Assembly (NCBI GenBank): GCA_027485045.1
Contig: JAIXRU010000030.1
Coordinates: 1 to 33,554, forward strand
DNA: 33,554 bases
Direction of reading: 5' to 3'
Origin: Opitutaceae bacterium
Lineage (GTDB): Bacteria > Verrucomicrobiota > Verrucomicrobiia > Opitutales > Opitutaceae
The notes beneath the pieces are model-generated. The model did not search any database, was not told where the DNA came from, and saw nothing but the letters and a program-made list of their open reading frames with translations. Shown in pieces: positions 1,800-4,779 of the stretch (position 1 is its first letter; each line of letters opens with the position of its first letter). The position numbers and the translations under genes were made by a program.

Positions 1800-3902
1800 A
1801 TGAGTTCTGATTCTCCCTCTGCCGTCTCGAATCCCTTCCTTGATGATACGTTTCTTATTCGCTGGGTCGACCATCGGCCTGAATTGATTGCGCCGGCCAT
1901 CACGATTGCCCTGAGCGAGGGCCAGGCCGCCCTGGAAGCCATCGCCGCACGGGCGGAGAGCGGAGACGCCACTTTTGAAAACACGTTTGTCGCGCTGGAA
2001 ACCGCTACCGAGCGTTTGAACTACGCTTGGTCCAAGGTGACGCACTTGCAGTCAGTGGCCGACTCGCCCGCGCTGCGGGAGGCGCACAATGCCATGCTCC
2101 CGCAAGTTTCGGCCTTTAACGCCGCCATACCCTTGAACCCGCGCCTTTGGGCCGCACTGCAAGCCGGTGCCGCTTCGCCCTCGGGCCGCGACGCGACCGG
2201 CGCTTGGGCGCGGCTGCGCGAAGAGACGCTGGCGAATTTCCGCGAGGCCGGTGCCAACCTGCCGGCGACGGCGCGCGCGCGGCTGGAAGCGATCGAGTCG
2301 GAACTGGCCCAGCTCACTCAAAAATACTCGGAGAACACCCTCGATTCAACCAACGCCTGGCAACTGGTGGTCGAGGATCCGAAACGTTTGCTCGGCTTGC
2401 CTCCCCATGCGGTAGCCGGCGCCAGGGACTCGGCGCGCAAGAAAGGCCTCGGCACCGATGCAGCACCCGTCTGGCGCTTTACCCTGCACGGCCCATCGCA
2501 GGAACCGGTGATGCTTTACGCCGAGGACGAGTCTTTGCGCCGCGAGCTCTGGGCCGCCTCGGTCGCGGTGGCAGCCGAAGCCGAAGGCGGAAAGTGGGAC
2601 AACGGCCCCTTGGTGCAGAAAATACTCGCCCTGCGCGCGGAGAAGGCCGCGGTGCTGGGCCGGGACAATTTCGCCGATCTGGTGCTGTCCCGCCGCATGG
2701 CGAAAAACGGCGCAAAAGCGCTGGAGTTTGTGACCGACTTCGAAGCCCGCTGCCGGCCGGCTTTCACCCGCGAGATCGAGGAGTTGGAGCGCTTCAAGGC
2801 GGAGGCCACCGCGAGCCCGGTCGCCCGCCTGAAAGCTTGGGAAGTTTCTTTCTGGGCCGAGCGGCTTCGCCTGGCCCGCCATGCGTTCGACGAGGAGGCG
2901 CTGCGTCCGTATTTCGAGGTAACGAAAGTCCAGTCCGGGTTGTTCGAGCTGGCCACGCGCATCTTCGGCCTGCGCATCGCCGAGGTGACCATACCGCTTG
3001 AGGCCAAATGGTGCGAAGAGGTGAAGTATTATGAAATCCACGACGAGAACGGCCGCCACCTCGGTTCGTTCTACGCCGATTGGCATCCCCGCGAGTCCAA
3101 ACGCGGCGGCGCCTGGATGGGCTATCTGGTGACGGGAGGGCATCGCGCAGAGGCGGCGGGGGGCGCGCGGGAGCCCCATCTCGGCTACATTTGCGGCAAT
3201 ATGTCGCCGCCCACGCCCGGTCAGCCGGCGCTCCTCACCCATCGCGAAGTGGAGACGATTTTCCATGAATTCGGGCACCTCTTGCATCACCTGCTGGGCG
3301 AGGTGCCGGTGAAGTCCCTGAACGGCGTCAATGTCGCGTGGGACTTCGTCGAGCTGCCTTCCCAAATCATGGAAAACTGGTGCTGGGAACGGGCCTCGCT
3401 CGACCTCTTCGCCCGCCATCATGAGACGGGTGCCCCGATACCGGAGGACTTGTTCAACAAGATGGTCGGCGCACGGAATTTTCGCTCGGCCTGCGCCGCC
3501 ATGCGCCAGACTCAATTCGCCAAGATGGATCTGTTGTTGCACCTGCGCGCCCAAGATTTTGTGACCGGCGACCTGGAGGCCAAGACCAGGGCCTTGATCG
3601 CGGATTGCATGCTGCCGACCGAGCCCCCCGCCCGGACTATCGTGCGGCGCTTCGGGCACCTGTTCTCCGATCCGGTGGGCTATGCGGCGGGCTACTATTC
3701 TTACAAATGGGCGGAGGTGCTGGAGGCGGATGCCTTCACCCGTTGGAAACAGGAAGACGTGTTTTCCCGTGCCGTGGGGGCGGAATTCGTCGAGCACATC
3801 TTGAGCAAGGGCAACAGCGAGGATGCCGAGGTGCTGTTCCGACGCTTTATGGGCCGCGATGCGGACCCGGCTGCTTTGCTGCAGCGCAGTGGTTTGGCTT
3901 AA
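1800..3902 (+). CDS. M3 family metallopeptidase (oligopeptidase A / PrlC-like)
   Basis: 700 aa ORF with the HEFGHLLHHLL zinc motif and M3 C-terminal signatures (GYAAGYYSYKWAEVLEADAF). Confidence 0.93.
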   Translation: MSSDSPSAVSNPFLDDTFLIRWVDHRPELIAPAITIALSEGQAALEAIAARAESGDATFENTFVALETATERLNYAWSKVTHLQSVADSPALREAHNAMLPQVSAFNAAIPLNPRLWAALQAGAASPSGRDATGAWARLREETLANFREAGANLPATARARLEAIESELAQLTQKYSENTLDSTNAWQLVVEDPKRLLGLPPHAVAGARDSARKKGLGTDAAPVWRFTLHGPSQEPVMLYAEDESLRRELWAASVAVAAEAEGGKWDNGPLVQKILALRAEKAAVLGRDNFADLVLSRRMAKNGAKALEFVTDFEARCRPAFTREIEELERFKAEATASPVARLKAWEVSFWAERLRLARHAFDEEALRPYFEVTKVQSGLFELATRIFGLRIAEVTIPLEAKWCEEVKYYEIHDENGRHLGSFYADWHPRESKRGGAWMGYLVTGGHRAEAAGGAREPHLGYICGNMSPPTPGQPALLTHREVETIFHEFGHLLHHLLGEVPVKSLNGVNVAWDFVELPSQIMENWCWERASLDLFARHHETGAPIPEDLFNKMVGARNFRSACAAMRQTQFAKMDLLLHLRAQDFVTGDLEAKTRALIADCMLPTEPPARTIVRRFGHLFSDPVGYAAGYYSYKWAEVLEADAFTRWKQEDVFSRAVGAEFVEHILSKGNSEDAEVLFRRFMGRDADPAALLQRSGLA

Positions 3903-3950
3903 CTAAATGGGTTCTGCGCGGTTTTGAGTGGGTGCAAAGACCGGGAAAGA

Positions 3951-4179
3951 ACCGCTAATGCGGCGAGCCAAAGTCCGCCGCCGAGATTTCACCTGCCGAC
4001 CAAGTCGGCCGACGCGGTCGATTCCTCGGCCAATTGCCTCGCTGGTAAAATGGCTAATTGCTTCTTTAAGCTATCTTTACTCTATGTCGAGGCCATTGGC
4101 CGTAACGTCGAACACGGCCGTTTCGCAACGCGAAGCCACTCGCTCTCTGCCGCGCTCATTGAGCCGCGGCATTAGCGGT
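3951..4179. repeat. Imperfect palindromic element with 11-bp perfect terminal inverted repeats (ACCGCTAATGC / GCATTAGCGGT)
   Basis: Terminal arms 3951-3961 and 4169-4179 are exact reverse complements. Internal arms CGGCCAATTGCCTCG (4027-4041) and CGAGGCCATTGGCCG (4088-4102) pair at 14/15 positions. CGGCCG at 4006-4011 and 4115-4120 lies in the matching nested order. Confidence 0.7.
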
Positions 4180-4314
4180 CAAACCAAAGCTACCCACTGA
4201 AAACAGTGAGGAACCACTAAATGGATATAGCTTAGGACAAAACCGCTCCGTCGCGGCCAAGGTCGGGGAATGGGATCGCGCCCCTGCTTCGATATGGAGT
4301 AGGCAAGAGACGCT

Positions 4315-4779
4315 ATGATTATCGCTGATCTTGCCAAAATCCCGGGCGGGACCTTCCCCGCGCAACGTTGGGGCCGTGGTCTCGTGGGCCAGGCCTCCCA
4401 ACCAATCCAAGCCAAGGGTTTTTCCATGGGCTTCTCCGTGCTTGCGCCCAAGGGCGGGCAGGTGCCCTGGCACAACCAGGAGCAGGAGGAGGTCTATTTT
4501 ATCACGCAAGGCGAAGGCCAGATCTGCGTCGATAACGAATGCTCCCCGATCAAGGCCGGCCAGGCGGTCTACATGCCGCCGGGTAAATTTCACCAATTGA
4601 CCAATACCGGTGACGAGCCGATGCACATGATCTATGTGTATTGCCCCGGCGGTGACGTGGCCCACTGGCGGCAGGAGCTCAACGGCACCCTGCCGGTCGC
4701 CGGTGTCGGCGAGATTCCGCCGCTGCCCCCCGGCGCTGAAGCGCAATGGACCAAGGTCGAGCCCAAGCCCCTCGGCTAA
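4315..4779 (+). CDS. Cupin domain-containing protein
   Basis: 154 aa with PWHNQEQEEVYFITQGEGQICVDNE...GQAVYMPPGKFHQLTNTGDEPMHMIYVY, typical cupin motifs 1 and 2. Confidence 0.85.
   Translation: MIIADLAKIPGGTFPAQRWGRGLVGQASQPIQAKGFSMGFSVLAPKGGQVPWHNQEQEEVYFITQGEGQICVDNECSPIKAGQAVYMPPGKFHQLTNTGDEPMHMIYVYCPGGDVAHWRQELNGTLPVAGVGEIPPLPPGAEAQWTKVEPKPLG

Follow-up and report, generated by a model that had tools for sequence, protein, structure and literature searches.

An ISL3-related MITE has been described in Methanosarcina acetivorans, where it is 179 bp long and related to ISMac21 (PMC3852290). Other non-autonomous miniature elements include the Tn3-derived TIMEs (PMC4133298), and REP sequences, BIMEs and REPINs represent bacterial intergenic hairpin repeats (PMC8266576, PMC3116915). 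The locus analyzed here lies in the window, that is, the entire 33,554-nucleotide stretch of an Opitutaceae genome, in which a sequence-only reading had pointed out an imperfect palindrome at positions 3951 to 4179. With a probability of roughly 0.88, this palindrome forms the center of a non-autonomous transposon of 306 bp, namely a MITE whose ends are of the ISL3-family type and enclose a pair of ∼95-nt repeats. The MITE itself is ordinary; the new part of the finding is the covarying repeat family.

The 306-bp element and its ends

The components of the palindrome listed in the sequence-only reading are all present: the 11-bp repeats ACCGCTAATGC and GCATTAGCGGT occupy 3951 to 3961 and 4169 to 4179, CGGCCG occurs at 4006 to 4011 and at 4115 to 4120, and both members of the pair CGGCCAATTGCCTCG/CGAGGCCATTGGCCG were recovered where they had been placed. 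An inverted-repeat search paired 3951 to 3986 with 4144 to 4179 (36 nt, 75% complementary). Stability relative to shuffled sequence had been proposed as a check, and a 249-nt stretch folds at −104.6 kcal/mol, compared with −79.0 ± 4.9 kcal/mol for dinucleotide shuffles, none of which (0 of 200) was as good; being 5.2 standard deviations better than the shuffles (z = −5.2), the fold shows that the palindrome is real and beyond chance. A promoter scan found none, the single terminator-like match falls outside the element, and an Rfam search returned nothing above chance.

The 11-bp repeats had been taken for the termini of an element, but positions 3951 and 4179 are internal. Matches in the window's own genome (3.45 Mb in 334 contigs, an 84% complete draft) extend past both ends of the palindrome, and when the copies are aligned with their flanks, similarity begins at GGTTCTTCGCTGTTTT... 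and ends at ...AAAACAGCGAGGAACC, which correspond to 3910 and 4215 in the window. The flanks of the copies are unrelated, similarity being lost at GGTTCTTC... and ...GAGGAACC. The complete element thus spans 3910 to 4215 on the plus strand, as delimited by the multicopy alignment (copies with unrelated flanks end at the same two points), the target-site duplications and the empty orthologous sites. Its terminal inverted repeats are imperfect and 24 bp long (GGTTCTTCGCTGTTTTGAGTGGGT): the left one, GGTTCTGCGCGGTTTTGAGTGGGT, lies at 3910 to 3933 on the plus strand and the right one, which reads GGTTCCTCACTGTTTTCAGTGGGT on the minus strand and was placed from the sequence and the alignment of copies, at 4192 to 4215; in the window copy, the two pair at 19 of 24 bases. 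The sequence-only reading saw no target-site duplication; a perfect 8-bp one, ACTAAATG, lies outside the coordinates examined there, at 3902 to 3909 and 4216 to 4223, and was identified in the sequence and by a script run over all copies.

The comparison with the rest of the genome that this reading had proposed gave six complete MITE copies in the own genome, with 88 to 96% identity, and several truncated or contig-end copies. Among the 95 genomes searched, the only other carriers are the congeners G003 and G005. The 8-bp duplications, mostly AT-rich, are perfect in 6 of 12 complete elements and match at 6 or 7 of 8 positions in 3 more; L033 has a perfect duplication if its right end is set one base earlier, and no duplication is present in 2 of the 12 (L040 and L066). 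A second MITE subfamily, which is older, is known from one insertion that G000:C135 and G005:C53 have in common, where the flanks are related and the duplications read AAGTTATG/AATTTATG; its core is an inverted unit pair in G005, and part of the left unit is lost in G000.

The window element is flanked by genes for a Peptidase_M3 protein (1800 to 3902) and a Cupin_2 protein (4315 to 4779). The peptidase stop codon is intact, and its final base is also the first base of the left ACTAAATG. The empty site that had been suggested as a test was seen in three congeners (G009, G011 and G014), where a short spacer without insert separates the orthologous peptidase and cupin genes. G003 also lacks the MITE in this spacer and has a different palindrome there, TTGGCCGGGGACGGCCAAC...GTTGGCCGTCCCCGGCCAA (L185, G003:C6). 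The element contains no transposase gene, the region having only small overlapping ORFs of 83 to 90 amino acids. All the features by which a MITE is recognized were therefore found (short length with terminal inverted repeats, multiple copies at unrelated sites, target-site duplications or empty sites, and lack of a transposase gene), bearing out the earlier suggestion of a MITE-like non-autonomous element.

Target duplications of 8 bp are typical of the ISL3 family. In the same bacterial family, the PF01610 elements of G019 and G021 have GGTTCTTC or GGTTCTCC ends and exact 8-bp duplications. The MITE ends are similar to these in the outer bases GGTTCTTC and, more loosely, in the inner part, the likeness falling short of the full 24 bp. 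Because the MITE has both the duplication length and the type of outer end of the local PF01610 elements, the sequence comparison makes the ISL3 family the likely source of its ends. The PF01610 (ISL3) transposase was not found in the window's own genome, an absence that carries little weight in such a draft, or in G003 or G005, the other MITE carriers; elsewhere in the genus, there is one fragment, in G007. Given that the own draft genome yielded no ISL3 transposase, the best reading of the element is that of an ISL3-type MITE mobilized in trans. It inserted at the stop codon of the M3 peptidase gene and duplicated ACTAAATG; a trans-acting ISL3-type transposase would have recognized the 24-bp ends and moved it. 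A 2-kb version in G005:C20 was considered as an autonomous partner and rejected, being a MITE copy split by an unrelated IS with ATTAG duplicated. That IS (L121, 1407 to 3144) has CCTAAAAACGGCGAT ends and a 5-bp duplication, and its transposase-like frame is interrupted by TGA. In G045, from another genus of the family, repeats (L036, L045, L051 and L057) share 24 to 28 bp with the right end of the MITE and may belong to a different MITE family whose ends are related.

A covarying repeat unit in both arms

Shorter, diverged matches without ISL3 ends also occur in the window's own genome, and their alignment defines a ∼95-nt unit that consists of two covarying hairpins and a fixed GGCCATTGGCC palindrome. 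The layout is GAGGCCATTGGCCG...TCG...hairpin 1 (GTTTCGC-nnn-GCGAAAC)...hairpin 2 (GCGGCGCTCATTGAGCCGCCGC), followed by ATTAGCGGTT. The covariance model R1, built from 21 units outside MITEs, matches both arms of the window element: the right arm at 4086 to 4185 on the plus strand (94.8 bits) and the left arm at 3945 to 4043 on the minus strand (60.7 bits). Because both arms are recognized by R1, the palindrome is an inverted pair of units around a 42-bp spacer. This spacer, at 4044 to 4085, is AT-rich, forms the tip of the palindrome and, in the alignment of copies, varies more than any other part of the element. Thus, the palindrome itself is not IS-derived, and the earlier idea of a repeat-derived hairpin was correct in a sense hidden from a reader of this locus, both arms being copies of a separate repeat family.

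Covariation, for which the sequence-only reading had suggested looking in relatives, was found in the helices of the unit. In the alignment of 21 units, 98.3% of the cells are paired and there are 18 double changes, compared with 2.3 in shuffles. Across 87 distinct units, double changes occur at 17 of 20 pairs (235 cells in all), and the covariation score is 0.409, compared with 0.132 for shuffled alignments and at most 0.096 with partners slid; the 87-unit alignment (A3) was fitted to the model, which biases its pair counts towards the model, but the 21-unit alignment, fitted to no model, agrees with it. The covariation in both alignments argues that hairpin formation by the unit is conserved, as RNA or as single-stranded DNA.

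Units are present in 6 of 15 genomes of the genus, with 9 to 31 matches in each when MITE arms are counted in. Outside MITEs, the unit occurs singly or in pairs in six genus genomes, and G002, G012 and G013 have units although no MITE was found in them. Alternating inverted pairs were seen at G012:C40, G012:C229 and G013:C100. There is no strong match elsewhere in the family or order, with weak hits only in G018 and G055, and when 84,980 genomes were scanned for an exact pattern, only three Verrucomicrobiota MAGs matched. On gene calls made with a simple codon-score method, almost every free-standing unit falls between genes; read as ACCGCTAATG..., the unit lies 3' of a stop codon at about 10 of 16 independent loci, usually 3 to 45 nt away, and no free-standing unit was found between divergent genes.

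Eleven unit loci are common to two or three species. At shared loci, the median identity is 91% for units, 88% for aligned flanking DNA and 75% for the 60 bp beside the unit; the difference between the units and the adjoining 60 bp suggests constraint on the units, and gene conversion between copies could contribute to their identity. At the one locus that was compared, intergenic DNA is too diverged between species for the boundaries of a unit insertion to be read.

Two other repeats were noted. A high-copy repeat of ∼39 bp (GTAGGGCGGGGTCGCCGCACCCCGCC type) sometimes lies beside units (L261, 3543 to 3581), with copies at G000:C208:13788-13825, C136:8931-8969, C87, C268 and elsewhere, and often forms inverted pairs separated by anything from a few to tens of bases. 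A repeat of ∼32 bp in L251 (1212 to 1243 and 2600 to 2631; G003:C12) was found many times in genomes of the genus, including ones without the ∼95-nt units.

Origin of the element and role of the free-standing unit

In a tree of units, left arms and right arms mostly group apart from each other, each group beside free-standing units; the tree is built on 100 columns, so its resolution is low and many forks are unresolved. The separate arm groups make it more likely that ISL3-type ends enclosed two units that were already distinct than that a single unit simply inverted itself or that all units descend from the MITE. In the most likely order of events, a unit pair became enclosed by ISL3-type ends and so gave rise to the MITE. 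The free-standing unit probably acts as a hairpin at mRNA 3' ends or between genes, as REP/BIME repeats do. A bolder proposal, which we put forward only tentatively, is that in this genus the ∼95-nt unit functions as a new type of 3'-UTR element, a double-hairpin RNA selected just after stop codons, and that an ISL3-type MITE which acquired an inverted pair of units is now carrying complete 3' hairpins to further genes.

The reverse derivation, in which free-standing units descend from the MITE by decay, with one arm lost and the ISL3 ends eroded to leave ∼95-nt relics, would explain why both share one unit and finds some backing in the truncated copies (such as L125 and L126) and in the units of G003:C12 (L251), which cluster with MITE right arms on the tree. 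It appears improbable, because units occur in the three genomes where no MITE was found, most free-standing units fall outside the MITE-arm groups, their ends are uniform and their positions after stop codons preferred, and a unit identity of ∼91% between orthologs, against ∼75% for neighboring intergenic DNA, is not the mark of decay. The suggestion that the element is a structured RNA in the leader of the cupin gene, acting in cis, draws on its position upstream of that gene and on its strong fold; with orthologous cupin genes that lack the insert in G009, G011 and G014, other copies in unrelated flanks and no Rfam match, it is scarcely tenable.

A mobile unit of the REPIN/BIME type, moved by a RAYT (Y1/HuH) transposase, with the MITE as a secondary carrier, is a further proposal that on balance we find doubtful. 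The units are intergenic hairpin repeats that are single or in alternating inverted pairs and absent between divergent genes, and Y1_Tnp proteins are encoded in most of these genomes. Yet unit alignment A1 shows no GTAG-type tetranucleotide 5' of the hairpin, Y1_Tnp genes are also present in congeners without units and none was found in the unit-bearing G002, a scan of eight Y1_Tnp loci from genomes with units revealed no unit, and the many positions common to several species give no evidence of recent movement.

On the reading favored here, enclosure of two distinct units by ISL3-type ends, the body of the MITE is a host-type, regulatory-looking repeat and not the remains of an IS, so that genes could acquire structured 3' ends through transposition. 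The repeat family covaries strongly, lacks an Rfam match and belongs to uncultured freshwater Verrucomicrobiota. In practical terms, the element and its units account for hairpins between genes in these assemblies, and for some of the breaks between contigs.

Comparison with known systems

In its intergenic location and its occurrence singly or in alternating inverted pairs of hairpin repeats, the unit resembles REP sequences, BIMEs and REPINs (PMC8266576, PMC3116915), but it is ∼95 nt long, combines two covarying hairpins with the GGCCATTGGCC palindrome and is present in tens rather than hundreds of copies. Lacking both the tag and an association with RAYT (TnpA-REP), whose distribution differs from its own, the unit is not classed as a REP despite the similar layout. 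The MITE as a whole resembles the ISMac21-related element in being short and multicopy, in having IS-like terminal inverted repeats and direct repeats of similar length and in having no transposase gene (PMC3852290); in contrast to that element, its core is an inverted pair of host hairpin repeats, not a shrunken IS, and no autonomous partner was found in the genome. TIMEs likewise are miniature and non-autonomous, have terminal inverted repeats and are flanked by target duplications rich in AT, but their ends are of the Tn3 type and 38 bp long, and the duplications measure 5 to 6 bp (PMC4133298). Finally, the ISL3 elements of the same bacterial family (L087 in G019; L088, L101 and L103 in G021) share with the MITE the GGTTCTTC outer ends and exact 8-bp duplications, whereas they are 1.3 kb long, encode the PF01610 transposase and differ in the inner parts of their ends.
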